This document shows, one piece after another, positions 29,876 to 43,798 of a stretch of DNA of 64,000 nucleotides; the stretch's first letter is position 1; every line of letters begins with the position of its first letter. The DNA is from Verrucomicrobiota bacterium (GTDB lineage Bacteria; Verrucomicrobiota; Verrucomicrobiia; Opitutales; UBA953): NCBI GenBank assembly GCA_016871415.1, contig VHDL01000002.1, positions 62,001-126,000 on the forward strand, read 5' to 3'. Position numbers and translations under genes: made by a program. The notes under the pieces are model-generated. The model was not told the DNA's origin. It did no database searches and saw only the letters and a program-made list of their open reading frames with translations.

Positions 29876-31042
29876 ATGAAGTTCAGGAATTTCCCGATCT
29901 ACCGCATCGAGTGGGTGACCTCCGCCTTCCTCTTGGGCACCGCCCTCCTGGCCGTCACCCTGGTCCCCTGGTTCCTCTGGAACCATTACGCCGACGTCCA
30001 GGGGTGGGGCTTCATCTGGAGCCTCTTCGTCTTCTACTATTTCGCCACCGGGTTCGGCATTACCCTCGGCTACCACCGCCTTTTCTCACACCTGTCCTTC
30101 CGCGCCAAGTGGCCCGTGAAGCTCTTCGTCCTGCTCTTCGGCGCCGCTTCCTTCGAGAATTCGGCCCTGGACTGGTCCGCCGACCACCGGGTCCACCACA
30201 AGCACGTCGACGAAGACGAGGACCCCTACGACATCTCCAAGGGATTCTTCTACGCCCACATCGGCTGGCTGCTCTTCCGCCTCAAGCCGAAGCCGCCCGT
30301 CAACAACGTCAAGGATCTCGAGGCCGACCCCCTGGTCATGTGGCAGCACCGCTACGTCCATTGGATCGGTTTCACCGTGGGATTCGTCCTGCCCGCCGCC
30401 CTCGGCTGGGCCTACGGCTCCCTGATGGGTTTCGAGAACCCCTGGATGACGGCCTTGGCCTGCTTCCTTCTGGCCGGCCTGCTCCGCGTGGTCGTGGTCC
30501 AACAGGGCACCTTCTGCATCAACTCCCTCTGCCACATGGTGGGACGCCAGCCTTATTCCACCACCCACAGCGCGCGGGATAGCGGCGTCGTCGCCCTGCT
30601 CACCTTCGGCGAGGGGTATCACAACTACCATCACGAGTTCCAGCATGACTACCGCAACGGGGTGAAGGGCTGGCAGTACGATCCCACCAAGTGGATCATC
30701 TGGGGCCTGTGCAAGCTGGGCATGACCTCCGACCTCCGCCGCGTGCCCGACTCCCGCATCATGGCCGCCGAACTTAAGGAGCGCAGCCTCACGCTCGGCC
30801 GAGACATCGACAATCTCGCCGCCCGCCTCGATGCCCGCACGCGTGAGCTCAAGGCGCGCACTATCGCCGCCGCCCATGAGCTCGCCCGCGAGCTCGGCGC
30901 CCGCGCGGAGGCGCTCAAGGAGGCCGCGGCCACCAGGGCCGAAGTCGGTCGTGAGACGATGGCCGAACTGCGCGGCCTGCTCAACCAGGCGGCCGCCCAT
31001 CTCGAGACGCTGCGTCGGGCCGACGCCGGCTCAGCGGCCTGA
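29876..31042 (+). CDS. acyl desaturase with C-terminal coiled-coil extension
   Basis: This is a membrane-bound di-iron fatty acid desaturase of the delta-9 type. Of 388 residues, about 1-285 form the catalytic part with all three histidine boxes: HRLFSH, HRVHHKH and HNYHH, plus four membrane helices. After about residue 290 a highly charged, Ala-rich helix of some 95 residues follows (RTRELKARTIAAAHELARE, EALKEAAATRAEVGRETM), predicted to be coiled coil. Standard bacterial desaturases lack this. The start at MKFRNFPIYRIEW is preferred over the ATG at 29822. It ends three bases before the convergent phosphatase gene. Confidence 0.93.
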   Translation: MKFRNFPIYRIEWVTSAFLLGTALLAVTLVPWFLWNHYADVQGWGFIWSLFVFYYFATGFGITLGYHRLFSHLSFRAKWPVKLFVLLFGAASFENSALDWSADHRVHHKHVDEDEDPYDISKGFFYAHIGWLLFRLKPKPPVNNVKDLEADPLVMWQHRYVHWIGFTVGFVLPAALGWAYGSLMGFENPWMTALACFLLAGLLRVVVVQQGTFCINSLCHMVGRQPYSTTHSARDSGVVALLTFGEGYHNYHHEFQHDYRNGVKGWQYDPTKWIIWGLCKLGMTSDLRRVPDSRIMAAELKERSLTLGRDIDNLAARLDARTRELKARTIAAAHELARELGARAEALKEAAATRAEVGRETMAELRGLLNQAAAHLETLRRADAGSAA

Positions 31043-31045
31043 GGT

Positions 31046-31507
31046 TCAGGAGCCCAGCTCCTGGACGAGCAGGTGGACCTTCTCCTCGATGAGGGGGAGG
31101 ACCTCCTCGGGCTGCGCGCAGTCAATGTCGTGTATGGCCCAGTATTCGATGCGGTCCGCCCATTCGGGGTGGGCCCGGAGCATCATGGCATGATGTTCGT
31201 CCCGCTTGAGGGCGATGGTGCGTCGGGCGCGTCCGAGATCATCCTCGCGCAGCTGCACGGGCGCTGGGCTGGTCAGGTGCAGGGGCACGCCCAGCTCCCC
31301 CAGCCGGCGGGCGGTGTCCCGGGAGATCGGGGTGGGCTCATCGGCCACCAGGGAGGTCAGCAGCCCCCGGGAGAAAGCCCGGTAGGGGGACCCGAGGCGG
31401 TCGGCATGCCAGTTGAACAGGGCCTCGGCGTGCCGGCTCCGATAGAAGTTGCCCGTGCAGACGAAGAGGACCAGCGGGCCTGAATCTGCGCTTGTGCGTT
31501 GGGACAT
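31046..31507 (-). CDS. low-molecular-weight phosphatase-family protein
   Basis: The 153-residue product has the P-loop CTGNFYRSRHAEALF, which fits C-x5-R-[ST], and a candidate general-acid loop (IEYWAIHDIDCAQPEE). It belongs to the LMW protein tyrosine phosphatase / arsenate reductase superfamily. The Phe-Tyr-Arg-Ser-Arg loop differs from the common GNICRSP, placing it in an uncharacterised subfamily. Its start overlaps the 5' region of the small lipoprotein gene on the other strand. Confidence 0.8.
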   Translation of the reverse strand: MSQRTSADSGPLVLFVCTGNFYRSRHAEALFNWHADRLGSPYRAFSRGLLTSLVADEPTPISRDTARRLGELGVPLHLTSPAPVQLREDDLGRARRTIALKRDEHHAMMLRAHPEWADRIEYWAIHDIDCAQPEEVLPLIEEKVHLLVQELGS

Positions 31508-31542
31508 GCGGCGTAAAGTCCCCGCAATCTACCCAACCCGCC

Positions 31543-31776
31543 ATGGCAAGCAAACTGTTCGTCCTCACCGCCCTTACCGCCCTCTTCGTCGGCTGCGCCA
31601 GTCCCGACCGCGCCCCCAGCCCAGTGATCGATGAGCCTGCCGCGCCCGCCCCCGCCGTCGAGACCCTCTCGCCCGTGGCTCCCGTGGCTCCCGGTATACC
31701 GGCTCCCGCCCCCGATGCCCCCAAGGCTCCGGCGCCCAAGGGCCGCATCCCGATTCGCAACGCCGGCAACAAGTGA
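31543..31776 (+). CDS. small Pro/Ala-rich lipoprotein
   Basis: The 77-residue product has a lipoprotein signal peptide (MASKLFVLTALTALFVGC, with the lipidated Cys after LFVG). The mature part is low-complexity and Pro/Ala-rich (APVAPGIPAPAPDAP) and ends in a short basic tail (KGRIPIRNAGNK). Such proteins are usually surface or periplasmic spacers; no function can be assigned. Confidence 0.7.
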   Translation: MASKLFVLTALTALFVGCASPDRAPSPVIDEPAAPAPAVETLSPVAPVAPGIPAPAPDAPKAPAPKGRIPIRNAGNK

Positions 31777-31782
31777 TTCGAA

Positions 31783-32712
31783 TCACATCAGCGATACCTC
31801 GGTGACGAAGGTGTCGGTGCGACCGGGCTCCACGTGGTGGAGCCCGTTTCCGTGTTCGGGGCTGTTGGGCGGCCCCATCCAGGGCTCGACGCAGTAGAAG
31901 GGCGCCTCCGGATCCTGCGTCCAGGTGACCACGGTCCCCCAGCTGCCGGGGATCGGGTCCTCGCCGACTTTCACCGTCACGTCCTCCTCGCCTGACTTGG
32001 GACCGAACGCCACGGCCGCTGACTTCAGGTGCGTGAAGATGCAGTCGGAGAGCTCCGGCGCGTCGAACGGGATCGCGTCCCTCCCCTTGAGGTCCGCGTA
32101 CGGCACGAGCTTGCCGTCGGCCGCGTGACGCCACTGACGCTTCGAGGGGATGCGGATGACGTAGTCGCGCCGGGAGAGCCCGCGGTGCCAGGGCAGGGTG
32201 AAGTAGAAATGGTGTCCCGCGCACCAGGGCAGCGGCCTGCCCCCGCGGTTCTCCAGCTCGAAGGTGATCCGCAGGAAGAGCTCGAGGAAGTCGAAGCGCA
32301 CGCGGAACGCGTAGTCGAAGGGATAGCAGCGGTCGCCCGCCTCGTCGGGGATGAGCCGCGCCACGGCGTGCCGCGGGCCGTGCTCGATGACCTCGAAGAC
32401 GCTGTCGCGGGCGAAGCCGTGCTGGGGCATGGGGCGCTTCACGCCCTCGGCGTCCTTCCAGGCGAACTTCTCACCGTCGGCGTAGTTGCGTCCCATGAAG
32501 GGGAAGAGCACAGGGTTGCCGCCGCGCACGGCCCCGATCTTCGCGAGCTCGGTCGGCGCGCCCGCGGGCCAGTGCAGGACCTCGCGTGCGCCCCCCGGCA
32601 GTTCGACGCGCCAGCGCATGAGCCGCGCCCCACGGGTCAGGCAGGTCTCGTAGGTGGAGGCCCCGACGCGCCAGCGTTCGCAGGGCGTTCCGTCGACGGT
32701 GAAGGTCTCCAT
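31783..32712 (-). CDS. aldose 1-epimerase-like (galactose mutarotase-fold) protein
   Basis: The 309-residue product fits the aldose-epimerase / YeaD superfamily: GNPVLFPFMGRN, PQHGFARDSVFEV with the substrate-binding His, CAGHHFYFTLP with the catalytic His, and VEPWMGPPNSPEHGNGLHHVEPG near the end. It would interconvert sugar anomers or act on sugar phosphates. The ATG giving METFTVDG is preferred to a TTG four codons earlier. Its location downstream of the lipid genes gives no clear functional link. Confidence 0.85.
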   Translation of the reverse strand: METFTVDGTPCERWRVGASTYETCLTRGARLMRWRVELPGGAREVLHWPAGAPTELAKIGAVRGGNPVLFPFMGRNYADGEKFAWKDAEGVKRPMPQHGFARDSVFEVIEHGPRHAVARLIPDEAGDRCYPFDYAFRVRFDFLELFLRITFELENRGGRPLPWCAGHHFYFTLPWHRGLSRRDYVIRIPSKRQWRHAADGKLVPYADLKGRDAIPFDAPELSDCIFTHLKSAAVAFGPKSGEEDVTVKVGEDPIPGSWGTVVTWTQDPEAPFYCVEPWMGPPNSPEHGNGLHHVEPGRTDTFVTEVSLM

Positions 32713-32760
32713 GCGTCCAGCCAAGGGCGGCGGGCGGCGGAGGCAAACGCGGACTTCCCC

Positions 32761-33795
32761 TCAGGCCTTGCGGAAGCGGTAGTGGCAGACCATCCACTCG
32801 CGTCCGCCGTCGAAGTTCCAGAGTTCGGCGCAGGCCATGAAGAAGATCCGCCAGTAGGCCAGCCACTTGCGCGCCTCGCCGGGGCCGTAGGTCCGGGCGA
32901 AGATCTCCAGGATCTCCTTGCGGCGGCGGTCGGTGTTGCGCAGCCAGTGCTCAGAGGTCTGCCCGTAGTGCCGGCCTTCGACCTCCCAGACCTGTTCGAG
33001 CTTCAGGTGCTCCTGGAAGCGGGAGGCGAGGCAGTTCGACGGCATGATGCCGCCGGTGAAGAAATGCCGGGACATCCAGTCGGTCCCGTCCTTCGACTCG
33101 AAGTGGTACGCGCAGTCGCGATGGGTGAAGACGTGGAAGAACAGCGCCCCGCCCGGCCGCAGCCAGGTGGACACGCGCCGCAGGAGCTCGCCCCAGTTCT
33201 TCATGTGCTCGAGCATCTCGACGGAGACGACGCGGTCATAGGCGCCCGCGTCGGCGTCGAAGACGTTCATGTCGCAGGTGATGATGCGCACGTTGGTCAG
33301 GCCGCGCGCCCGGGCCTCGGATTCGATGTGCGCCCGTTGGGAGGCGGAGTTGGAGACGCCGGTGATACGCGAGCGGGGGTATTTCTCGGCCATCCAGAGG
33401 GTGAGGGATCCCCAGCCGCAGCCGAGTTCGAGCACGTCCTGTCCGTCCATGAGTTCGGCGCGTTCGCAGGTGAGCGCCAGCATGGCCTCCTCGGCGGCCG
33501 GGATGTCCTCGTCCCCATTGGGATAGAGGCAGCTGGAATACTTGAGGCGCGGGCCGAGGCAGAGGCGGTAGAACGCGGCGGGTACCTCGTAGTGCTGGTC
33601 ATTGGCCGCCTTGGTGGCCACGGCGACGGGCAGCCGGCGCAGCTCCTCGGCGAAAGCGTTGACGCGCCGGCGGCGTTCTTCGGCGTCGTCCGACCGCTCG
33701 TCGCGGAGGCGCTGGCGCAGGAGGCGGCGGATGCCCCGGCGGATGAGGGAGTCGGGGAGGACGTCCCAGCCGAGGACGGCGTCGAGCAAGGGCAT
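32761..33795 (-). CDS. cyclopropane-fatty-acid-synthase-family SAM methyltransferase (1)
   Basis: The 344-residue product has a short N-terminal helical domain, the sequence HYEVPAAFYRLCLGPRLKYSS and the SAM site DVLELGCGWGSLTLWMAEKYP. Further along are SVEMLEHMKNW, FHVFTHRDCAYHF and HFFTGGIMPS. It resembles the CFA-like group often found beside DUF1295 genes, and differs from the classical synthase encoded at 35798-37036. Lipid C-methylation is inferred from family and context. It follows the DUF1295 gene after about 50 bases in what looks like one operon. Confidence 0.88.
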   Translation of the reverse strand: MPLLDAVLGWDVLPDSLIRRGIRRLLRQRLRDERSDDAEERRRRVNAFAEELRRLPVAVATKAANDQHYEVPAAFYRLCLGPRLKYSSCLYPNGDEDIPAAEEAMLALTCERAELMDGQDVLELGCGWGSLTLWMAEKYPRSRITGVSNSASQRAHIESEARARGLTNVRIITCDMNVFDADAGAYDRVVSVEMLEHMKNWGELLRRVSTWLRPGGALFFHVFTHRDCAYHFESKDGTDWMSRHFFTGGIMPSNCLASRFQEHLKLEQVWEVEGRHYGQTSEHWLRNTDRRRKEILEIFARTYGPGEARKWLAYWRIFFMACAELWNFDGGREWMVCHYRFRKA

Positions 33796-33847
33796 GCAGG
33801 AATCTGGAACGAAAGGCCGCCCGCTGGCAAACCCGCCCTCGGAAAAG

Positions 33848-34663
33848 TCAGCCCCGCGGCGGGCGGGGCCAGAAGGCCGGGACGCGCCGCATGTAGTCCT
33901 CATAGGCGGCGCCCTTGGACTTGAGCAGCTGCTGCTCGGTGAGGGGCACGCCGGTCACGCGGGTCAGGAAGTGATGGATGACGACGACGCAGAGCAGGCC
34001 GGGGACGCCCCGGTATTCGGCGTTGTAGCTCATGAGCAGAAAGCCGACCCACACGAGCCACTCGCCGAAGTAGTTCGGGTGCCGGCTCCACGCCCACAGG
34101 CCGCGTTCGCAGACCTTGCCCCTGTTCGCGGGATCCTTCTTGAAGGCGGCGAGCTGCGCGTCGGCCACGCCTTCGATGAGCAGGGCGAGGCCGAAGACGG
34201 CCAGTCCGGCCCAGTGGACCGCCGCCGGGGAGGGCGGTGCGCCCGCCGGAGCCGAGGACAGCAGGGGCAGGCAGAGCACGGCCAGCACGACGGCCTGCAG
34301 GAAGTAGAAGGTGACCATTTTAGCGGCCATGCGCTCGCCGTGCTCCTCACGCATGCGCAGGTAGCGTCCGTCCTCCTGGTCGAGGTGCCCGAGCACGCGC
34401 GCGCCGAGATGCGCGCTCAGCCGTAGGCTCCAGGCGACGGTGGTGCCGGCCATGAGCAGGCCCTGGCCTCCCAGGCACGGCGTGATGAGGAAGTGTACGG
34501 CCAGCATCTGGAGCCCGACCAGCGCGAAGCCGAACGACCAGGCGACGTCGACGATCGACCAGTTATCGATGCATCTGGCCACCGCCCAGCAGGCGGCGAA
34601 GTAGACGCACGCCTCGACGAGCAGGATGGCGAAATCGAGGCCCAGCGCGACGTAGGGGTTCAT
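33848..34663 (-). CDS. DUF1295 (steroid 5-alpha-reductase-like) membrane protein
   Basis: The 271-residue protein has about six or seven membrane helices and the DUF1295 signature WSRHPNYFGEWLVWVGFLL close to the C-terminus, plus YMRRVPAFWPRPP. The fold is related to steroid reductases and isoprenylcysteine methyltransferases. Bacterial members commonly lie beside CFA-synthase genes, as here. A role in lipid reduction or modification is inferred. Its start overlaps the DUF2062 stop by ATGA. Confidence 0.9.
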   Translation of the reverse strand: MNPYVALGLDFAILLVEACVYFAACWAVARCIDNWSIVDVAWSFGFALVGLQMLAVHFLITPCLGGQGLLMAGTTVAWSLRLSAHLGARVLGHLDQEDGRYLRMREEHGERMAAKMVTFYFLQAVVLAVLCLPLLSSAPAGAPPSPAAVHWAGLAVFGLALLIEGVADAQLAAFKKDPANRGKVCERGLWAWSRHPNYFGEWLVWVGFLLMSYNAEYRGVPGLLCVVVIHHFLTRVTGVPLTEQQLLKSKGAAYEDYMRRVPAFWPRPPRG

Positions 34664-35124
34664 GAGGCGAGTCTGCGGAAGGTGCCGCGCAAGGCCAGCC
34701 CGAGCAGCCAGGCGACCGCGGGCATGACGAGGGCCCAGCCGAGGGCGCCGTGCAGTCCGGCCATGCCGAATTCGGACAGGAAGGCGGCGGGCGATTCGGC
34801 GAACCTGCTTGCGATGAGCGTCGGGGAGAGGGGCATGGGTTCCGCGCCGGTCACGGCCTCACCAAGGCGCACGAAGGGCACGATGAGCGCGATCTGCGCG
34901 GGGTAGAGGAGGAAGTTGACCGTCTGCAGGGCGACGTGATTGAGCCGGGCCAGCCGTCCGGCCAGGAAGCAAAGGAAGGTGGTCGCGCCCAGGAAGGGGA
35001 GCAGCCCGATGGCCGCCCCCACGGCGGCCGAGTTCGCCAGGCCTTCCGGTGTGGCGCCCTGCCTCAGCTCGGCGACGAGCGGGTCGCGCACGCGCCGGGC
35101 CAGCCATGCCCCGACCGCGCCCAT
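34660..35124 (-). CDS. DUF2062 membrane protein
   Basis: The 154-residue protein carries the DUF2062 pattern (GATPEGLANSAAVGAAIGLLPFLGATT and NPxxxxPxY-like LLYPAQIALIVPFVRLGE) and three or four hydrophobic helices. Function is unknown; members are often near glycosyltransferase or lipid genes. It is coupled to genes on both sides (1-base overlap with the upstream stop, 4-base overlap downstream). Confidence 0.82.
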   Translation of the reverse strand: MGAVGAWLARRVRDPLVAELRQGATPEGLANSAAVGAAIGLLPFLGATTFLCFLAGRLARLNHVALQTVNFLLYPAQIALIVPFVRLGEAVTGAEPMPLSPTLIASRFAESPAAFLSEFGMAGLHGALGWALVMPAVAWLLGLALRGTFRRLAS

Positions 35125-35519
35125 CAGGCCGCACGTCGGGTGAAGAAGAGCTTCGCGGGGTCGTTCTCGCCCGGAGCCGCGCGCAGGCAGAGCAGGGCGT
35201 AGGCCGCGATGGCGAAGTTCCCGAGCAGGAGCAGCGCGACCAGCCAGCCGAGGCGTGAGAGCGCGGTGCGCTCACGCCAGGCGACGTAGAGCCAGAAGGC
35301 CATGAAGCCGAAGTAGGCGTCGAACATCGTGGCGAGGCCCCAGGGCTCGGAGCACACGGTCTCGAAGCCTTTGATCACGTTGATACCCTCCTTCCCCGCG
35401 AGGGCGGCGTACTGGGGCAGGGAGGTGATGGTCGGGGTCGTGGTGGCATACCACGACACCCAGGTCATGGCGGCCAGCACGATGATGAAGTAGAGGGCGA
35501 CGGAGCGGCGCAGGTTCAT
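35124..35519 (-). CDS. small membrane protein, DUF1475-like
   Basis: The 131-residue product has three or four hydrophobic helices (SVALYFIIVLAAMTWVSWYA, WGLATMFDAYFGFMAFWLYVAW, LGWLVALLLLGNFAIAAYALL). The PWxxATxxDAYFGFxxFxxxVAW segment is reminiscent of DUF1475, found with lipid or polyketide genes. It is the first gene of the minus operon 35519-32761. Assignment rests on that one segment. Confidence 0.68.
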   Translation of the reverse strand: MNLRRSVALYFIIVLAAMTWVSWYATTTPTITSLPQYAALAGKEGINVIKGFETVCSEPWGLATMFDAYFGFMAFWLYVAWRERTALSRLGWLVALLLLGNFAIAAYALLCLRAAPGENDPAKLFFTRRAA

Positions 35520-35594
35520 GGGTTTAGGGTAGGGGAGATGCGGGGAAAGGCAAACGGCGCGGAAAAGAGCCGAAGGCTGAACGGTTTCGAGACA

Positions 35595-35617
35595 GGGTCA
35601 GCGCTGCGTGCTGACCC
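35595..35617. repeat. dispersed hairpin, CACGCAG family (copy 1)
   Basis: Arms GGGTCAGC and GCTGACCC pair perfectly over 8 bp around a 7-base loop. The reverse complement matches the element at 57926-57948 at 19 of 23 positions, with one stem pair exchanged A-T for G-C. It lies in the 278-base gap between the CFA synthase gene and the DUF1475-like gene; outside the two hairpins this gap holds nothing I recognise. Confidence 0.75.
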
Positions 35618-35619
35618 AT

Positions 35620-35643
35620 TTCGTCCGCCGCAGGGCGGACGAA
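35620..35643. repeat. perfect 10-bp hairpin directly after the CACGCAG element
   Basis: TTCGTCCGCC, loop GCAG, GGCGGACGAA. It starts two bases after the preceding hairpin, so the pair forms a composite double stem-loop. It could terminate the CFA synthase transcript, although no T-run follows. Confidence 0.75.
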
Positions 35644-35797
35644 GGTAGGGTCGTGGCCAAGCAGCGCCGTCCTGTCAAGCGGACGCGAAGTCATCGCGTC
35701 CTTGCCTAAGTCAGGAGCACCCGCTCAAGGGGAGGCCGGAAACCGGGAAGGATGCTTCGGGCATGATGTCCCCGTGTCAACTTGCCCTCGTGTCCCT

Positions 35798-37036
35798 TCA
35801 GGACGCTTGCGTCGCGCTCAGCCCGCCGCAGTTCGGCCGCACGTACACGGCCTGCACCACGCCGATGTTTCGGCGTTCGAAGGCGGCCTCGCAGTAGCGG
35901 AAATACAGGCGCCACTTGCGGATGAAGCGTTCGTCGAAGCCCATGGCGCGGACTTTTTCCAGATTGGCCTCGAAGGCGCGGCACCAGGCGTCGAGGGTGC
36001 GCGCGTAGTCGGGCCCGAACTCCTCGAGGCGGTGCAGCTGGAAGCCGGCGCGGCGGGTCATGAGCTCACCGACGCGGTTGATCGAGAGGAGGAGGGAGCC
36101 GGGGAAGATGTGCTTCTGGATGAAGTCCACGCCGCTCCGGAACTGCTCGTAGCGGGCGTCGGGGCAGGTGATGTACTGGAAGGCGGCGACGCCGTCCTTC
36201 TTTAGCAGGCGCCCGACGGATTCGCAGAAGGCCGGGAGGTAGCGGTGGCCGAGGGCCTCCATCATCTCGATGGACACGCACTTGTCATACTGGCCGCGGT
36301 GGTCGCGGAAATCCTCGAGGCGCACCTCGATGCGGTCCGCCAGCCCGGCGGCCCTCACGCGTTCGACGGCGAGGTCGTGCTGTGCCTTGGAGATGGTCAG
36401 GGTGGTCACGCGGCAGCCGTGATGGCGCACGGCGTGCAGGGCCCAGCCGCCCCAGCCGGTGCCAATCTCGATCACGTGATCCTCGGGCCGCAGGCGGAGG
36501 AGGCGGCACAGCGCCTCGTTCTTGTTCGCCTGCGCCTGCTCGAGCGTCGTCGCGCCCTCCCAGCGGGCGGAGGAGTACATCATCGACGGGTCGAGGAAGA
36601 GCCGGAAGAAGTCGTTCGCGAGGTCGTAGTGCTCGGCGATGTTGCGCCGCACGACCTTGCGGGAGTTCGGACGCAGGAGGTGGCCGATGCGGTTGGCCAC
36701 GCGCAGGACGCCCAGTGCGGCGTTGCGCCGGGCGGATCCGGACAGGCCCGCGGCGTGGTCGAGGTTGTCGATGAAGAACGCGATGACCGCAGCGAGGTCG
36801 GGCGAGTCCCATTCGCCGTCCATGTAGGATTCCGTCAGGCCGATGTCCGCTGAGAGCACGATGCGGCGGAAGAAGCCGTCGTCTTTCGCCGTGATGCGCG
36901 CGCCGTCCGCGACGGCGGGGTCGCCGAAGCGCAGGGTCCCGCCCTCGGGCGTGACGAGGTCGAGCCGTCCGCTCCGGAGGCGTGCGAACTCCCGCAGCAC
37001 GAGGCGACGGGAAAGGGAGGGGCGGTGGACGGTCAT
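35798..37036 (-). CDS. cfa: cyclopropane-fatty-acyl-phospholipid synthase-family enzyme (2)
   Basis: This family transfers a methyl or methylene group from SAM to double bonds of phospholipid acyl chains at the inner membrane. The 412-residue product has the CFA N-terminal domain (LRFGDPAVADGARI, GLTESYMDGEWDSPDL) and the SAM core (NIAEHYDLANDFFRLFLDPSMMYSSA, VIEIGTGWGGWALHA, SIEMMEALG). The FIQKHIFPGSLL motif and a classical C-terminus follow (RYCEAAFERRNIGVVQAVY). Its product could be a cyclopropane, a methyl branch or a methylated furan precursor; sequence alone does not decide. It overlaps the DUF1365 gene by four bases. Confidence 0.95.
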   Translation of the reverse strand: MTVHRPSLSRRLVLREFARLRSGRLDLVTPEGGTLRFGDPAVADGARITAKDDGFFRRIVLSADIGLTESYMDGEWDSPDLAAVIAFFIDNLDHAAGLSGSARRNAALGVLRVANRIGHLLRPNSRKVVRRNIAEHYDLANDFFRLFLDPSMMYSSARWEGATTLEQAQANKNEALCRLLRLRPEDHVIEIGTGWGGWALHAVRHHGCRVTTLTISKAQHDLAVERVRAAGLADRIEVRLEDFRDHRGQYDKCVSIEMMEALGHRYLPAFCESVGRLLKKDGVAAFQYITCPDARYEQFRSGVDFIQKHIFPGSLLLSINRVGELMTRRAGFQLHRLEEFGPDYARTLDAWCRAFEANLEKVRAMGFDERFIRKWRLYFRYCEAAFERRNIGVVQAVYVRPNCGGLSATQAS

Positions 37037-37881
37037 GGTCGGCCGGCGATCTCGGGCGAAGGTTGGCGTAGTCCGCGCTGCAGGTCGACGTCATCCCGCT
37101 TGCGCCGGAAGGGCAGGCGGCGGGCCAGCCACAGCCAGGTGGCGTGGAGGTGGATGAGTACAGTCACCTTGAGCACGAGAAGGGGCGACTTGAGCGTGAG
37201 CCAGAGCAGGCTGAGGTCGGTGAGCGGCACCTGCCGGCCGCTCCAGGAGCTGACTAGGGTCTTCTCGCCGCCCTCATAGTGGTCGACCGTGACCGAGAGC
37301 GTGCCCGCGGGCTCACGCATGGTGAACTCGAACTCGGTGTCGAGGCCCGAGAAGGGCGAGACGTAGAAGCGCTTGGGCGCGCGCAGCTGCAGGTAGGGGT
37401 CACCGTCGTGCTCCTCGCGCCGGCAGTCCGGCCCGAGGAACCAGGCCTTGCGCTCCCCGAAGGTGTTGTGCACCTCGGCGATTCCGCAGTCGAGCCGCCC
37501 GTCGACGGTGACGACGAAGAAGACCACGGGGTTATAGGACCGGCCGAAGGCGCGCGGCATCGCGATGAGGTAGATTGCGGCCCGCTCCGGCAGGGCGTGC
37601 CCCTGTGATGCGCAGAAGGCCCGCACGCGCGCCTCGAGGCGGTCCCCAGGGCGGCCGAAGTCCTGCGGGGCGCCCTCGGGGCCGAAGACCTCGCCGGGCG
37701 ACAGGAAGTCCTCGTCCCGGAAATCGTAGGGGGACCAGCGGCGGCCCAGCAGCCAGAGTCCGCGACCGGGATTCTCCAGCGCCTCGGGGCGGATGCTGAA
37801 GGCGAAGGCCGCGTGGGAGAAGTGGTGCCGCTTCGGCCGCAGCCGCGCGTGCATCACGGTCGCATCATAGAGCCGCACCAT
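37033..37881 (-). CDS. DUF1365 protein
   Basis: The 282-residue product shows the DUF1365 core: ATVMHARLRPKRHHFSHAAF, the YNPVVFFVV segment, EVHNTFGERKAW and KRFYVSPFSGLDTEFEF, and a late amphipathic/hydrophobic helix (LTLKSPLLVLKVTVLIHLHATW). The biochemical role is not established to my knowledge. It co-occurs with an FAD amine-oxidase-type protein and a CFA synthase in many genomes, and both are nearby here. It overlaps the synthase gene by ATGA. Confidence 0.93.
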   Translation of the reverse strand: MVRLYDATVMHARLRPKRHHFSHAAFAFSIRPEALENPGRGLWLLGRRWSPYDFRDEDFLSPGEVFGPEGAPQDFGRPGDRLEARVRAFCASQGHALPERAAIYLIAMPRAFGRSYNPVVFFVVTVDGRLDCGIAEVHNTFGERKAWFLGPDCRREEHDGDPYLQLRAPKRFYVSPFSGLDTEFEFTMREPAGTLSVTVDHYEGGEKTLVSSWSGRQVPLTDLSLLWLTLKSPLLVLKVTVLIHLHATWLWLARRLPFRRKRDDVDLQRGLRQPSPEIAGRP

Positions 37882-37979
37882 CGGAGACGGAGGTTTGGAG
37901 GGTTCCCGGCCGGGCGCAAGCCCCCTCGCCGCATTCTGCCCCGCTTGCGTCTTGGGCCCGTCGTGGTATCAAGGCGACA

Positions 37980-39287
37980 GTGCCCTCGCTCCTGATCGCT
38001 AGAGCCGTGAATCCCGAGGTCGCCGTGTTCCTGGCGGTTTTCTCCCTCCTATGCCTCTGGCTGGCGATGCGAGCGGGCCGTCGCCGCCGTCTGCTCGACG
38101 ACACCCCGGTCTCGAAGGCGCTTAGCGTCTTCATCGGCGAGGTCGAGCTCGACGGCGTCTGCGTGCTGGAGAAGCCGCTCATCGCCTACGTCAGCGAGCG
38201 TCCCTGCGTGGCCTACCGCTGGTCCGTCGCGGAGCACTGGAGCCGTATGGTCACGGAGACCTACACCGATGACAAGGGCCGCACACGCACGCGGCAGGTT
38301 CGCCGTACGGGCTGGGACACGGTGGACGAGGGCGAGGAGGAGTCCGGCTTCTACCTCCGCGACGAGACCGGCTACGTCTGGGTCAACCCCGAGGGGGCGC
38401 AGTATGAATACGTCGAGATGTTCAGCCAGTCCGTGGAGCGCGATGATCCGCTCTACTACGGCAAGGGTCCCCGCGGCGCGGTGGAGGGCTCGACCGGTAC
38501 GCGGCTCTTCATCGAGCGCGGGATGCCCCTGGGCACGCGGCTCTTCGTGCGCGGGCGCGCCAGCGAGCGCACCGACGTGGTCGCGGCCCAGATTGCCCGA
38601 CACCCGGAGCAGGAGATGTTCATCATAACGCCGCGGGGCGAGGAGCGCCTGAGCTCCAGCAACGCGACCGCCTTCGTCTTGTGGACGCTCGCCGGCGCTT
38701 TCGCCGCCGCGGCTGCGGCCTTCCTCTTCATGGGCGTGGACGGCCTGCGCGGCGACGTGCCCGTCTCGGCCATCGCGGGCCTCGCGATCTACGGACTCCT
38801 TTTCTTCGTCGGCTGGGTCTGGATGGTCTTCAACAGCCTCGTGGGCGTGCGCAACCGCGTGACGCGGGCCCGCTCGCTCGTCGACGTCCAGCTGAAGCGC
38901 CGCGCTGACCTCATCCCGGCGCTCGCAGCCTGCTTGGCCGGATACCGCGCCCATGAGCGCGCGGTGCAGGAGGCCGTCGCGGCCCTGCGCGCGCAGTCGG
39001 GCTCCGGCGGGGTGAGCGCCATCGCGCCCTCGATCCTGGCGCTACAGGAGGTCTACCCCGACCTCGCCGCCGTGGAGTCCTTCACCGCGTTGAGCCGGGG
39101 GCTGGTCGAAACCGAGCAGCGCATCGCCCTCGCCCGCAACTTCCTGAACGACTCTGTGACGTTCCACAATGTCCGCATCGAGCGCGTGCCGGACCGGTTC
39201 GTCGCTGGGCTCGCCGGCATGCGTCCCGAGGAGCTCTTCCGTGCCGAGGGCTTCGAGCGCCTGCCCTCCGCGGTCCGCTTCGGCTGA
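37980..39287 (+). CDS. GIDE domain-LemA fusion membrane protein
   Basis: The 435-residue product starts with a membrane helix (VAVFLAVFSLLCLWLAMRAG). It then has a GIDE/BAM-like domain of about 170 residues, related to the non-RING part of the mitochondrial E3 ligase MUL1 (CVLEKPLIAYVSERPCVAYRWSVAE, VWVNPEGAQYEYVEMF). Two further helices and a C-terminal LemA-type helical bundle follow (VFNSLVGVRNRVTRARSLVDVQLKRRADLIPAL, LARNFLNDSVTFHNVRIERVPDRF). It starts at GTG (37980, or 38007). It interrupts the minus-strand lipid cluster and ends one base before the FAD oxidoreductase stop. Confidence 0.88.
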   Translation: MPSLLIARAVNPEVAVFLAVFSLLCLWLAMRAGRRRRLLDDTPVSKALSVFIGEVELDGVCVLEKPLIAYVSERPCVAYRWSVAEHWSRMVTETYTDDKGRTRTRQVRRTGWDTVDEGEEESGFYLRDETGYVWVNPEGAQYEYVEMFSQSVERDDPLYYGKGPRGAVEGSTGTRLFIERGMPLGTRLFVRGRASERTDVVAAQIARHPEQEMFIITPRGEERLSSSNATAFVLWTLAGAFAAAAAAFLFMGVDGLRGDVPVSAIAGLAIYGLLFFVGWVWMVFNSLVGVRNRVTRARSLVDVQLKRRADLIPALAACLAGYRAHERAVQEAVAALRAQSGSGGVSAIAPSILALQEVYPDLAAVESFTALSRGLVETEQRIALARNFLNDSVTFHNVRIERVPDRFVAGLAGMRPEELFRAEGFERLPSAVRFG

Positions 39288-40565
39288 TCAGGCCTCCCAA
39301 GCGTCGCGGCCGAGGAGGAACGAGGACAGCCGGTGGGCCGACCAGAGTCCGTCCTCGTGGAAGCCGTGCCTCTGCCAAGCGCCGACGAAGTGCGTGCGCG
39401 CCCCGGGCCTTTCGTTGAGCGCCCGCACCTCCGCCTGGGCGGCGATGCCCTCGCCGGTGAAGAGCGGGTGCTCGCAGGGGATGGTCCGGATGACCTTTTC
39501 CGGCGCGACCTGTTCGGGCCGGTTGATAGTGACGACGAAGTCGCCGCGGTCGGTCAGGCCCTGCAGGGAGTTCATCCAGTAGTGGGTTGAGGTCACCGGG
39601 CGGCCGTCCTCCCGCCAGGTGCGGCAGTTCCAGGAGGCCCGCGCCGACGGCGTGCGCGGCAGCGGTGACATGTCCGAGTGCACCACGGCCACGTTGCGGT
39701 TGTAAGGGAAGGCGCCGAGGATGCGGCGTTCCTCCCCGTCCGCGTCGACGAGCAGGCCCAGCGTGTCGTCGGCGTGCGTGGCCAGGATCACGCGGTCGAA
39801 GCGCTCCTCGCCGCCCGCATGCGTGACCGTCACGCCGTCCGCCGTCCGTCGCACCGCGGTGACCGCGCAGCCCGTCCGCACGTCGGCGGGACAGGCGGCG
39901 AGCAGCGCGTCGACGTACGTCCGGCTGCCGCCCTCCAGCGTGAGCCAGGGGTGCTGCGTGTTGAGTCCGAGGAAGCCGTGGTTGTGGAAGAAGCGCAGCA
40001 GCGCCGCCGCGGGAAAGCCGAGCATCTTCTCCGGCGGCGTCGACCACACCGCCGAGCTCATCGGTATCAGGTAGAGGTCGAGGAAGTCGCGGCCGAGTCC
40101 GCGCGCGGCGCACCATTCGCCGAGCGGAGTGCGTTCGGCCTCGGGCGTCTTCCAGCCCTCGGCGGCGAGGCGGTTGAACTTCGCGACCTGCATCAGGAAG
40201 CGCCAGAAGCGCGGCCGCAGCAGGTTCCGTTTCTGCGCGAAGAGGTGTCGCAGCGACGAGCCGCGCCACTCGGTGCCGGTGGGGTCGTGACGCACGGCGA
40301 AGGACATCGAGGTCGGCTTGGGCTTCACGCCGAGCTCCTTGAACAGACGGCAGAGGTGCGGGTAGGTCACCTCGTTGAAGACCATGAAGCCCACGTCCAT
40401 CGGGAGCTGCCGCCCCGTGCCCGGCTCATCGACCTCGATCGTGTGGGCGTGGCCGCCCGGCCGGCGGTCGGAGTCGAAGAGGGTCACCTGCGCGCGTTCC
40501 CGCAGGAAGCGCAGGCAGCCCAGGCCCGAGACGCCCGAGCCGACAATCGCGACCCGTTCAGGCAC
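39288..40565 (-). CDS. FAD-dependent oxidoreductase (flavin amine-oxidase family)
   Basis: The 425-residue product begins VPERVAIVGSGVSGLGCLRFL, a dinucleotide-binding site. It has the PGGHAHTI motif, VDVGFMVFNEVTYPHL and HPWLTLEGGSRTYVDAL, and a C-terminal FAD-contact segment. It is the group that co-occurs with DUF1365 and CFA synthase and acts on lipids rather than amines; desaturation of a methylated acyl chain is the inferred reaction. The GTG start overlaps the desaturase stop by eight bases, so both are translated from one message. Confidence 0.92.
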   Translation of the reverse strand: MPERVAIVGSGVSGLGCLRFLRERAQVTLFDSDRRPGGHAHTIEVDEPGTGRQLPMDVGFMVFNEVTYPHLCRLFKELGVKPKPTSMSFAVRHDPTGTEWRGSSLRHLFAQKRNLLRPRFWRFLMQVAKFNRLAAEGWKTPEAERTPLGEWCAARGLGRDFLDLYLIPMSSAVWSTPPEKMLGFPAAALLRFFHNHGFLGLNTQHPWLTLEGGSRTYVDALLAACPADVRTGCAVTAVRRTADGVTVTHAGGEERFDRVILATHADDTLGLLVDADGEERRILGAFPYNRNVAVVHSDMSPLPRTPSARASWNCRTWREDGRPVTSTHYWMNSLQGLTDRGDFVVTINRPEQVAPEKVIRTIPCEHPLFTGEGIAAQAEVRALNERPGARTHFVGAWQRHGFHEDGLWSAHRLSSFLLGRDAWEA

Positions 40566-41598
40566 TCGGTTCCGCCTCCTCCGCCGTGACCTCGCCGTCT
40601 TCACCCGCGGCCTCGGCGTAGACCGAGGCGGGCACCGGCTTGAGGCCCCAGATGAGGCCGGTCCAGGAGAGGGCCTTGAGGAGATACCAGGTAGGGTCGA
40701 ACTCCCACCAGAAGAATCCCTGGCGCACGGTGGCCTGGTACCGGTGGTGGTTGTTGTGCCAGCCCTCGCCGAGGGTGATCAGCGAGAGCAGCAGAGAGTT
40801 GCGGGAATCGTCCCCGGTTTGGAGGAAACGCCGCCGCCCGAACACGTGGGCGAGGGAGTTGATGCAGGCCGTACCATGGAAGAGCACGACGGTGGAAATC
40901 ACGCCCCAGACGAGCATCTGCGCCCCTGTCGTCGCCACGCCGGCGGACTCCAGCCAGGCGCCCGCCCCGAAGAGCGCGGCGAAGAAGATTACCGGCACGA
41001 ACACGTCGAAGCGGTTCAGGAACACGAGTTCGGGATATTTCGCCAGGTCCGGCACGCGCGCGTAGTCGGTGGGGAAGTTCCGCTTGGCGGTGATCCAGCC
41101 CACGTGCGACCACCAGAAGCCGTCCACCACGGGCGAATGCTTGTCCTCCGGGTCGTCGGAGTGGCGGTGGTGGTGGCGGTGGGTGGCCGCCCACCAGAGG
41201 GCGCCGCGCTGGACGGCGGTGGCGGTCCACAGGGCCATGATGAACTGGAAGGCCCGGGAGGTGGCGAAGGTCCGGTGGGAGAAGTAGCGGTGTAGGAAGC
41301 CGGTGATGGCGAACATCCGTACGAAGTAGAGGGCCGCCGCGGTCCAGACGGCCACGGGCGAGGCCCCGGTCCAGATCACCGCGAAACAGGCCAGATGCAG
41401 GAGGATGAAGGGGATGCAGCGGGCCCAGTCCACTTCCTTGGGGGCGGCCCGCATGGCTTCGGCCCCCTCCGGCAGGTGGTCGGCGTCGATCCACCGGACG
41501 AGGGTGGGAAGGGGTCCCTTGGGAGGGGCGCTGGGGGCTGATCCGGGCACCTGCCGACTAATAAAGGCACTCCGGCACTCCGCAACTGCTTTGACCAT
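40558..41598 (-). CDS. membrane-bound acyl-CoA/acyl-lipid desaturase
   Basis: A second di-iron desaturase, about 346 residues. The histidine boxes are HRYFSH, HRHHHRH and HNNHH, with NSLAHVFG between them and membrane helices around. The region before about residue 48 is poorly conserved; ATG at 41454 is an alternative start. It lacks the coiled-coil tail of the desaturase at 29876. It diverges from the ECF sigma gene, with about 60 bases between starts, so the sigma factor could control both directions. Confidence 0.93.
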   Translation of the reverse strand: MVKAVAECRSAFISRQVPGSAPSAPPKGPLPTLVRWIDADHLPEGAEAMRAAPKEVDWARCIPFILLHLACFAVIWTGASPVAVWTAAALYFVRMFAITGFLHRYFSHRTFATSRAFQFIMALWTATAVQRGALWWAATHRHHHRHSDDPEDKHSPVVDGFWWSHVGWITAKRNFPTDYARVPDLAKYPELVFLNRFDVFVPVIFFAALFGAGAWLESAGVATTGAQMLVWGVISTVVLFHGTACINSLAHVFGRRRFLQTGDDSRNSLLLSLITLGEGWHNNHHRYQATVRQGFFWWEFDPTWYLLKALSWTGLIWGLKPVPASVYAEAAGEDGEVTAEEAEPSA

Positions 41599-41658
41599 CC
41601 GGCGATGGCCGCTGAAAATGTCATTTCGGAGACAAATCCGACCCAACGCGCCGCTGAT

Positions 41659-42171
41659 ATGTCAGAGATGCCCGACACCCGAGTCTCCGGTGACTGGCGG
41701 GCCTGGTTCGCCGAACACGGCCCCAGGCTCCGTCTGATCGCGCGCAATTGGACCCGCTCGGACGCGGACGCGGACGATGTCGTGCAGGAGGCGTTCATCC
41801 GGTTCTGGAAGCACCAGCGTCACCTTCCCGGCGATCCGAACGCCCTCGTGGTCACCTCCATCCGTCGCGCCGCCCTCGACCTGATTCGCAGCTCCGACCG
41901 CCGCACGGTCCGTGAGAAGGCCGTGGCCGCCGACACGGACACCGTCGGCTGGTTCGAGCCGGAGGCCGACCCTCGGCTCAGGGTCCTGGCCGATTCGCTC
42001 GGCGCCCTCCCGGAGGAGCAGCGCGAGGTGGTCGTGCTCAAGACCTGGGGCGGACTGACTTTTGACCAGATCGGCGAACAGCTCTCGATTTCACCAAACA
42101 CCGCGGCCTCCCGGTGGCGCTATGCCATGGAGGCCCTGCGCAGACTCCTCACCGCCCGCACCCATGCCTGA
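41659..42171 (+). CDS. ECF-type RNA polymerase sigma factor
   Basis: The 170-residue product has sigma region 2 (ARNWTRSDADADDVVQEAFIRFWKH) and region 4 (LPEEQREVVVLKTWGGLTFDQIGEQLSISPNTAASRWRYAMEALRR), joined by a short linker, the ECF architecture. Upstream in-frame ATGs (from 41605) exist, but ECF sigma factors usually start shortly before region 2, so the ATG at 41659 is preferred. It is coupled to a putative membrane anti-sigma gene by an eight-base overlap and faces away from the desaturase/FAD oxidoreductase genes, its likely targets. Confidence 0.93.
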   Translation: MSEMPDTRVSGDWRAWFAEHGPRLRLIARNWTRSDADADDVVQEAFIRFWKHQRHLPGDPNALVVTSIRRAALDLIRSSDRRTVREKAVAADTDTVGWFEPEADPRLRVLADSLGALPEEQREVVVLKTWGGLTFDQIGEQLSISPNTAASRWRYAMEALRRLLTARTHA

Positions 42172-42706
42172 ACAGGACGAAGATATCGAACTCGCGCTGG
42201 CCGCCCTGCGCCCCCGCCCGCCCTCGGACGCGACGGTCCGCGCCGTCGCGGAGTCGCTCGACGCTCCCCGGCAGGAGCGTTCCAACGTGATCGTCTGGTT
42301 CTCCGGCCTCGCGGCGGCCGCGTGCCTCGCCCTGGCCTTCCTCGTGCTGCCGGAGGCTGAGCCCGTCGCCGAGGCCGCGGCTTTCGGCGCCGCTGAAAGC
42401 CGCTCCGGCCTCATGGGGGCCGCCCCCGCGCTCGACGTGACGGCCGCGCCGGCGGCCGGAGCGGGCCGCGGCTTCGGCGGAGGAGCCGCCAAGTCGGCCG
42501 CGCCTTATCGCCTGGTGTCCGCCCAGGTCTCCCCCTCCAGCCTCGAGATGCTGGAGCCCGTCCGGCTTCGTGACGGCACCTATGTCCGTCCGGTGCGCAT
42601 GCGTCGCGAGCATTCCACGCACTGGGAGACTCCGGGATCCGGCTCCAGGCTGGTCCGCTACCGCCCCGAGGAGCGCACGATTCTCCTTCCCCTCGAAACC
42701 TACTGA
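42164..42706 (+). CDS. single-pass membrane protein, putative anti-sigma factor
   Basis: The 180-residue product has a cytosolic N-terminal part of about 40 residues (DEDIELALAALRPRPPSDATVRAVAESL) and one membrane helix (IVWFSGLAAAACLALAFLVLP). A Gly/Ala linker and a periplasmic domain rich in Arg and aromatic residues follow (PVRLRDGTYVRPVRMRREHSTHWE). I see no ZAS zinc motif. Gene order, overlap with the sigma gene and topology suggest an anti-sigma factor; sequence alone does not prove it. Confidence 0.7.
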   Translation: MPEQDEDIELALAALRPRPPSDATVRAVAESLDAPRQERSNVIVWFSGLAAAACLALAFLVLPEAEPVAEAAAFGAAESRSGLMGAAPALDVTAAPAAGAGRGFGGGAAKSAAPYRLVSAQVSPSSLEMLEPVRLRDGTYVRPVRMRREHSTHWETPGSGSRLVRYRPEERTILLPLETY

Positions 42707-42736
42707 ACGGATCCGCCGATCCTTGACGCTCACCTT

Positions 42737-43798
42737 ATGAAGACCGCCATGTCCCTCCCGATTCCCCTCCACATGCTGCTGCTCGCGGGCTTGCTCGCGC
42801 CCGCCCATGCGTCCGACGCGTCCGCGTCCGGCACGAAGGCCTCCGAATCCTCCGCCGCTGCCAAGCCGGCCGCCCCCGCCGCCTACGCGGGACTGAACGC
42901 CCTGCCTCCCACCGACGAAGAGCGCGCCGCCCTCGGCGCCAAGCTGCCCGAAGGCGTCGGCCTGCGCGTGGGCGTCGTCGACCCCAAGGGTCCCGCCGTG
43001 GACCAGCTCCAGCCGGGCGACGTCCTGGTGCGTTTTGACGACCAGCTCCTCGTGAATTTCGACCAGTTCCGCTCGCTCGTGCAGATGCGTCGGCCGGGCG
43101 ACACGGTGAAGTTCTCGGTGCTGCGCAACGGCTCCGCCATGACCGTGCCCGTGCGTCTCGCCGTCCGTCCCCCGGGCGTGGAGGCTTCCGACTCTCCTCG
43201 CGGCAAGTCCGCGACCGCGGCCGACGCCCTGAAGAAGGACTCCGGCGGCGCGCGCACGATCCAGGTCGGCCCCGGCTTCGTCATCAACTTCCCCCCCAGC
43301 ACCGCCAACTTCCCCCCGGAGATCATGCAGCAGCTCGAGGAGCTGCAGGCGCGCGGCCTCTTCGCCCAGCCCGCCGCGGCGGCCGGAGCCCGCGCCCGCA
43401 AGGGGGCGGCGCGGGACGTCGAGGAGCCCGGCAAGGCCCGGCCCGGCGTGAGCGCGCGCTCCTCGCGCTCCTTCAGTTTCGGCATCGGCACCGGCCTGAC
43501 TTCGAGCTCCAGCACGCATCTCGTCGATGAGGCGGGATCGGTCACCGTCGAGGACAAGGACGGCAAGCGTCATGCGACGGTCAAGGACGCCGCCGGCGCG
43601 GTGCTGTTCGACGGTGACATCTCGACCGAGGCGCAGCGCGCCCAGCTGTCCGAAGACGTGCGTCGTCGGCTCAAGGCCGTGGAGGGCGCCGTGCTCAGCA
43701 AGCCCGCGATCCCCGGCGCGCCCGGCGCCGCTCCGGCGCCCGCGGCTCCCAAGTCCGCCGAAGAGCCGAAGAAGTTCGACCGCAAGAAGGGCGCCTGA
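42737..43798 (+). CDS. exported PDZ-domain protein
   Basis: The 353-residue product has a signal peptide (LHMLLLAGLLAPAHA) and a PDZ domain at about 55-140 (GLRVGVVDPKGPAVDQLQPGDVLVRFDDQLLVNFDQFRSLV and an RPGDTVKFSVLRNG strand). A long low-complexity region and an acidic/basic C-terminal part follow. No protease domain is present. Placed third in the sigma operon, it could bind a protease or present a signal to the membrane protein; this is inference. A palindrome after the stop may terminate the operon. Confidence 0.85.
   Translation: MKTAMSLPIPLHMLLLAGLLAPAHASDASASGTKASESSAAAKPAAPAAYAGLNALPPTDEERAALGAKLPEGVGLRVGVVDPKGPAVDQLQPGDVLVRFDDQLLVNFDQFRSLVQMRRPGDTVKFSVLRNGSAMTVPVRLAVRPPGVEASDSPRGKSATAADALKKDSGGARTIQVGPGFVINFPPSTANFPPEIMQQLEELQARGLFAQPAAAAGARARKGAARDVEEPGKARPGVSARSSRSFSFGIGTGLTSSSSTHLVDEAGSVTVEDKDGKRHATVKDAAGAVLFDGDISTEAQRAQLSEDVRRRLKAVEGAVLSKPAIPGAPGAAPAPAAPKSAEEPKKFDRKKGA

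Follow-up and report, generated by a model that had tools for sequence, protein, structure and literature searches.

A 64,000-nucleotide stretch of contig VHDL01000002.1 from a Verrucomicrobiota bacterium (hereafter the window) was found to carry two gene modules back to back, which are probably unrelated: a lipid cassette that is likely to direct the synthesis of furan fatty acids, and a self-regulating module, headed by an extracytoplasmic function (ECF) sigma factor, that would spare the lipid genes. Furan fatty acids are radical-scavenging lipids, and the bacterial pathway to them has so far been solved in two alphaproteobacteria. An earlier note on this DNA had read both sets of genes as a single fatty-acid-modification island under the control of the sigma factor. 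The analysis covered positions 29,876-43,798, all positions being those of the whole stretch. The genome (2.2 Mb in 60 contigs) comes from a lineage of freshwater Opitutae; among named records, lake metagenome-assembled genomes and Opitutae bacterium BS10 stand nearest to it.

Composition of the lipid cassette

The cassette occupies the minus strand from 41550 in the order des2, ufaD-like, ufaO-like, ufaM-like, DUF1475, DUF2062, DUF1295 and fufM-like, and the plus strand from 41659 carries the genes for the ECF sigma factor, a small single-transmembrane protein and an exported PDZ protein (Table 1). The genes listed by the earlier note were confirmed as real and in place by Pfam and NCBIfam profile matches; two proteins matched PF00487 (FA_desaturase) and two matched PF02353 (CMAS; 261 and 126 bits), the latter being the only CMAS matches genome-wide. 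The families of UfaM, UfaD and UfaO (CMAS, an amine-oxidase-type protein dependent on flavin adenine dinucleotide (FAD), and DUF1365) are encoded together in the window. By sequence, the FAD protein fits as the equivalent of UfaD, the DUF1365 protein as that of UfaO and the first CMAS protein (CMAS-1) as that of UfaM, and the second (CMAS-2) belongs to the coclaurine-N-methyltransferase-like family of FufM, the enzyme that gives dimethyl-furan fatty acids.

Conserved residues were examined at positions conserved at ≥95% in 47-85 homologues from several phyla. The UfaD-like protein keeps 54 of 55 such residues, the UfaO-like protein 18/18, the UfaM-like protein 68/69, the DUF1295 protein 28/28 and the FufM-like protein 89/89; Des2 retains all 20 (47 homologues), including the His boxes. 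In a PDB search the FufM-like protein matched coclaurine N-methyltransferase with an E value of 2.5e-72, whereas the top-scoring Cfa chain reached 4e-24. It is 27% identical to the UfaM of the window, and the published identity of Rhodopseudomonas palustris RPA0924 to UfaM is 26%. The top PDB match of Des2 was stearoyl-CoA desaturase 1 (E 1.8e-24). No FabA was found over the cut-off in the window's genome, so the O2-dependent desaturases are the likely source of the monoene. The roles implied by the earlier note had to be shifted: the UfaD of Rhodobacter is RSP1091, an FAD protein rather than one of the di-iron desaturases, and its UfaO is RSP1090, which has the DUF1365 domain (PMC7380195). 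The di-iron desaturases instead probably provide the cis monoene.

No sequence relatives of UfaO or DUF1295 were found in the PDB, and both were modelled with AlphaFold2. The UfaO model (pLDDT 94) is a beta barrel that bears a borderline resemblance to Ycf58, which is FABP-like, and to nitrobindin (best Z 6.4, root-mean-square deviation (rmsd) 4.2, 127 aligned); these matches were not taken as a sign of haem in UfaO. The DUF1295 model (pLDDT 95) resembles delta14-sterol reductase (Z 15.3, rmsd 4.1, 243 aligned), steroid 5-alpha-reductase (Z 14.8, rmsd 4.5, 210 aligned) and ICMT (Z 13.0), with unrelated rows at about 7. A reductase role for DUF1295 may be suggested by this modelled fold, although likeness of fold is no proof of function.

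Conservation and co-occurrence of the cassette

Verrucomicrobiota of other families have the cassette in the order des2-ufaD-ufaO-ufaM-DUF1475-DUF2062-DUF1295-fufM, all on one strand; DUF1295 is the constant neighbour of fufM, and UfaD leads the order UfaD-UfaO-UfaM in many phyla. Outside the phylum, the order recurs in Lysobacteraceae, in Vampirovibrio and in Acinetobacter; Lysobacter, Luteimonas, Aquimonas and Rhodanobacter are among the named genomes that show it, and an Acinetobacter plasmid carries desaturase-UfaD-UfaO-UfaM-DUF1295-FufM. Plasmids of Burkholderia, Rhizobium and Streptomyces also bear the cassette, and a rotated order was seen in Pedobacter and Mucilaginibacter (Bacteroidota) and in a planctomycete. 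Because it is conserved across phyla, the gene set is not a product of chance. The neighbourhood survey across Verrucomicrobiota that had been proposed showed the lipid genes co-occurring in relatives, and the suggestion that Verrucomicrobiota have their own counterpart of the UfaM/UfaD/UfaO set was supported, with families, order and residues kept and FufM in addition.

Among 289 genomes of the phylum, UfaD was present in 64 and FufM in 53, and every genome with FufM also had UfaD (53/53; Fisher p 2e-47, the entries sharing ancestry and not being independent); 11 genomes had UfaD without FufM. Within the genus, FufM was undetected in 6 of the 12 genomes searched (G001, G010, G024, G028, G347 and G353). 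In loci L036 and L039 no FufM was found and the remaining cassette is retained, with DUF1295 abutting the epimerase gene; the two loci would offer a natural contrast between mono- and dimethyl-furan within the genus.

Proposed pathway and comparison with known systems

AT3G23510 is presumably a FAD-oxidase/CMAS fusion of plants, and AT4G33110 is taken here to be coclaurine-N-methyltransferase-like. Both UfaM and UfaD have homology in AT3G23510, and FufM with AT4G33110 (PMC10940516). In the solved pathway, UfaM (RSP2144) methylates cis-vaccenate, UfaD (RSP1091) forms the methylated diene, UfaO (RSP1090, DUF1365) inserts O2-derived oxygen and FufM (RPA0924) adds a second methyl (Lemke et al. 2020, PMC7380195). 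The window has one member of each of the four enzyme families of the pathway known from R. sphaeroides (RSP2144, RSP1091, RSP1090) and R. palustris (RPA2569-2571, RPA0924), and the order UfaD-UfaO-UfaM is that of RPA2571-2569. In contrast to Rhodobacter and Rhodopseudomonas, the window gathers all of these genes in a single locus, along with a desaturase of its own and with DUF1295, DUF2062 and DUF1475; its ufaO and ufaD are split by LemA (in the window's family), ChrR is absent and the sigma module is unrelated.

The roles proposed for the individual steps are drawn from homology, the presence, conservation, co-occurrence and conserved residues of the genes being observed. The substrate would be the acyl chains of membrane phospholipids. 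Des2 would convert a saturated chain to the cis monoene, which UfaM would methylate, with S-adenosylmethionine, to a methyl-monoene; UfaD, with FAD, would then desaturate this to a methyl-branched conjugated diene, and UfaO would insert O2-derived oxygen and close the furan ring. FufM would place a second methyl on the ring to give the dimethylfuran, and DUF1295 may have an additional part in the pathway, for instance by donating hydride or acting as a reductase in the FufM branch. With a Delta9 monoene as the starting point, the ring positions should differ from those of the 9M5/9D5 acids derived from vaccenate, for instance with acid-side chains of 7 carbons.

In Chlamydomonas, singlet oxygen induces the same families together (CFA1, CFA2/coclaurine-type, DUF1365 and DUF1295) in a SAK1-dependent manner (PMC4067076), and this was the only work found in a literature search for DUF1365 together with DUF1295. 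The Chlamydomonas set shares the families of the window cassette, but it is eukaryotic and its genes are not described as an operon.

The sigma module

The combination of an ECF factor, a short membrane anti-sigma protein and a PDZ protein would form an envelope-proteolysis stress module, in which the ECF factor may regulate its own gene, the PDZ gene and a gene for a tail-specific protease, and not the lipid genes. The motif AGACAAAW-N14-CGCT was derived by aligning the des2/ECF gap across the genus together with order-level ECF homologues. It lies just 5' of the ECF gene throughout the genus and in loci L048-L050, the distant gaps being otherwise unalignable. When 22 loci of the genus were scanned with a matrix of the motif, the median scores were 24.6 for ECF promoters, 14.5 for PDZ and -4.2 for Des2; no Des2 promoter scored ≥12 (0/22) and all lipid-gene promoters were at background, the Des1 and LemA scores being excluded for mis-anchored windows. 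An ECF-type motif precedes the PDZ gene in 62% of the genus loci. Across 55 genus genomes one additional recurrent site was detected, 5' of a short open frame and a tail-specific protease gene (Tsp/Prc; TSP_NTD, 141 bits), as in loci L231, L232, L234, L235, L244 and L246; pattern searches of the window's own genome showed a degenerate form of the motif at this site. The window's genome has one exact site for a relaxed motif outside the module (C10), and pattern controls indicated that such lone sites arise by chance. A one-mismatch ECF-type site directly 5' of a predicted exported-protein gene (G000 contig C18, 11308-11333; L210) may also be due to chance.

In the tree, the window ECF groups with those of L048-L050, loci without an adjacent cassette, and stands apart from the cassette-adjacent SigK-like ECFs of Streptomyces, Burkholderia, Luteimonas and L137/L181, and also from ChrR-linked ECFs. 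No SigK-like ECF above 37 bits was found elsewhere in the window's genome. In 8 genomes of other genera that bear the cassette, the ECF homologue is separated from it by 85 kb to 1.4 Mb or is on another contig, and 8 close homologues occur in UfaD-less genomes. The ECF gene is adjacent to the cassette, yet the motif, the regulon, the tree and the placement of homologues argue that adjacency here is not control, and the factor probably does not control the lipid genes.

The small protein encoded after the sigma gene had been put forward as a membrane anti-sigma. Its one hydrophobic segment, its position and the recurrence of an anti-sigma-like gene after the ECF in other families of the order are in keeping with this, but it has no Pfam or NCBIfam match, nor a zinc motif, RskA or cupin domain. 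The order-wide module (window 41659-43798; L048 9703-11717; L049 9792-11819; L050) encodes an anti-sigma with an N-terminal LRPRPPS-like segment, one transmembrane segment and a C-terminal PREEV-like end, and the PDZ gene accompanies the other two in L048 and L049. Unlike the RpoE-ChrR pair, the window candidate lacks the HxxxCxxC zinc motif and the cupin domain, and its ECF is far from ChrR-linked ones. The arrangement proposed by the earlier note, a membrane anti-sigma in place of ChrR beside the cassette, does exist in other organisms, as SigK/RskA-type pairs in Streptomyces (L128, with UfaD-UfaO-UfaM-DUF1295) and in the verrucomicrobial loci L137 and L181, where the ECF/anti-sigma pair is likewise divergent from the lipid operon. 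The window differs from these loci in that RskA_C is found in L181 and Streptomyces but not in the window protein, its ECF is of another clade and its motif is off the lipid genes. Between the ECF gene and des2 in L137 and L181 there is an inverted repeat, GGATGCA..TGCATCC, which may serve as an operator.

Neighbouring genes and regulatory elements

With conserved start codons (des2 GTG 41550, ECF ATG 41659), the divergent des2/ECF gap measures about 108 bases in place of the 60 or so estimated before; the open frame of des2 reaches 41646. The start of ufaM overlaps the stop of ufaO, and the true start of the ufaD-like gene is probably near 40565. Window genes beyond those listed earlier are DUF2062, DUF1475, LemA/GIDE, an aldose-epimerase-like gene and a small phosphatase-like gene. 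The LemA/GIDE insertion is restricted to the window's own family, and because it separates ufaO from ufaD, the dyad region 5' of ufaO is the promoter region of ufaO itself. Des1 is 32% identical to Des2 and is present only in genus/family loci; the cassette of other families does not include it. The conserved CGCAACTGCTTTGAC block between des2 and the ECF gene holds a sigma70-like -35 sequence, TTTGAC, facing the ECF gene, 17 bp from TAAAAT/TATAAT in relatives.

Table 1 Features of the analysed part of the window
Feature	Position	Strand	Remarks
des1, second Delta9-type desaturase	29876..31042	+	PF00487; neighbour gene
fufM-like methyltransferase (CMAS-2), coclaurine-N-methyltransferase-like	32761..33795	-	Open frame to 33903
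DUF1295 membrane protein, steroid/sterol-reductase-like fold	33848..34663	-	PF06966, 200 bits
DUF2062 small membrane protein	34660..35124	-	PF09835; cassette position conserved
DUF1475-type small membrane protein	35124..35519	-	PF07343, 23.3 bits, barely above cut-off; cassette position conserved
ufaM-like CMAS-family acyl methyltransferase (CMAS-1)	35798..37036	-	PF02353, 261 bits
ufaO-like DUF1365 protein, predicted O2-dependent furan-forming monooxygenase	37033..37881	-	PF07103, 182 bits
Dyad CGCAAGC..GCTTGCG 5' of ufaO	37915..37949	-	GCAAG..CTTGC in 14/15 aligned genus sequences, degenerate in L102
LemA/GIDE fusion gene	37980-39287	Opposite to cassette	Between ufaO and ufaD
ufaD-like FAD-dependent acyl desaturase, amine-oxidase superfamily	39288..40604	-	PF01593, 71 bits
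des2, Delta9-type membrane di-iron acyl desaturase	40558..41550	-	PF00487; cassette gene 1
Conserved block CGCAACTGCTTTGAC between des2 and ECF	41581..41595	.	20/21 genus sequences, degenerate in L136
ECF autoregulatory promoter motif AGACAAAW-N14-CGCT	41630..41655	+	Sole exact match in genome
ECF sigma factor, adjacent module	41659..42171	+	TIGR02937, 76 bits
Putative single-transmembrane anti-sigma, uncatalogued type	42164..42706	+	One hydrophobic segment; after sigma gene
Exported PDZ protein	42737..43798	+	PF13180

Alternative readings

Cyclopropane or mid-chain methyl-branched chains, with UfaM forming the ring or a methylene and the UfaD-like protein or DUF1295 reducing it, are an unlikely product of the cassette. 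CMAS enzymes are capable of both, the double-bond-reductase-like fold of DUF1295 would suit a methylene reductase, and two homologues of CMAS, BfaB and TmpB, produce 10-methylene chains (PMC7791843); the Bfa operons of actinobacteria and the Tmp operons of gammaproteobacteria pair a CMAS methyltransferase with a flavoprotein, as the window does. The published operons are, however, two-gene ones without UfaO or FufM, and this chemistry gives no role to DUF1365/UfaO or to FufM, yet FufM occurs exclusively with UfaD. Moreover, BfaA and TmpA are mutually non-homologous, TmpA being geranylgeranyl-reductase-like (PMC7791843), whereas the window flavoprotein falls in PF01593, the amine-oxidase type, and matches no reductase family better. 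The Bfa and Tmp pathways were set apart by the published description of their flavoproteins as of other kinds (PMC7791843), without direct alignment.

As to regulation, direct control of the lipid genes by the ECF factor, in the manner of RpoE-ChrR in Rhodobacter with a membrane anti-sigma replacing ChrR, is improbable. The divergent adjacency of des2 and the ECF gene is conserved in the genus, and Streptomyces, Burkholderia, Rhizobium, Azospirillum and other Verrucomicrobiota have an ECF/anti-sigma pair beside the cassette, but the motif is missing from every lipid promoter scanned, its recurrent targets being ECF, PDZ and Tsp, and the clade of the window ECF and the scattered location of its homologues speak against such control. 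Control of the cassette by a different regulator, which would act at the conserved elements 5' of ufaO and des2 when oxygen, light or singlet oxygen is sensed, is a real possibility, if somewhat short of an even chance. Both the GCAAG..CTTGC dyad and the CGCAACTGCTTTGAC block are conserved while their flanking bases are not; on the other hand, both resemble -35 hexamers of ordinary promoters and no regulator has been identified. Oxygen or light stress is a natural hypothesis for the regulation of the cassette by analogy, because the same families are singlet-oxygen-responsive in R. sphaeroides and co-induced in Chlamydomonas (PMC4067076).

Several points weigh against the reading of a furan cassette beside an independent sigma module. 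Searching the literature for reports of furan fatty acids in Verrucomicrobia turned up nothing pertinent. Orthology to the Ufa/Fuf proteins of R. sphaeroides and R. palustris is argued from families, synteny and residues, and UfaO is the most divergent member of the cassette, at about 24-41% identity outside the genus. When UfaM was aligned to E. coli Cfa at C139, E239, H266, I268 and Y317, the bicarbonate-site residues, E239, I268 and Y317 were kept, C139 was replaced by S and H266 by Q, a pattern that does not separate methylation from cyclopropanation. The presence of the ECF and of UfaD in the phylum is weakly correlated (p 0.013; strict set, p 0.0015), which may be explained by shared ancestry within the order, and weak or indirect control of des2 by the ECF may occur, the promoter lying in the same 108-bp gap.

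Significance

For the window, the label "sigma-controlled" should be dropped, and the sigma result cautions that divergent adjacency by itself is no proof of regulation. The furan pathway itself was already known; what appears to be new, judged from the genes, is its form as a desaturase-led, DUF1295-containing operon. A tentative and rather doubtful extension is that dimethyl-furan synthesis might be an ancient, widely shared aerobic means of membrane protection, encoded by a desaturase-led operon in several phyla, with DUF1295 as its unrecognised enzyme and UfaO as an oxygenase built on an FABP/nitrobindin-like barrel. The cassette survey yields named, culturable carriers, such as Pedobacter zeae (L186), Mucilaginibacter frigoritolerans (L177), Lysobacter lacus (L164) and Aquimonas voraii (L195), and if the furan reading is true, furan lipids would be far more widespread than recorded, extending to the Verrucomicrobiota and to other phyla.

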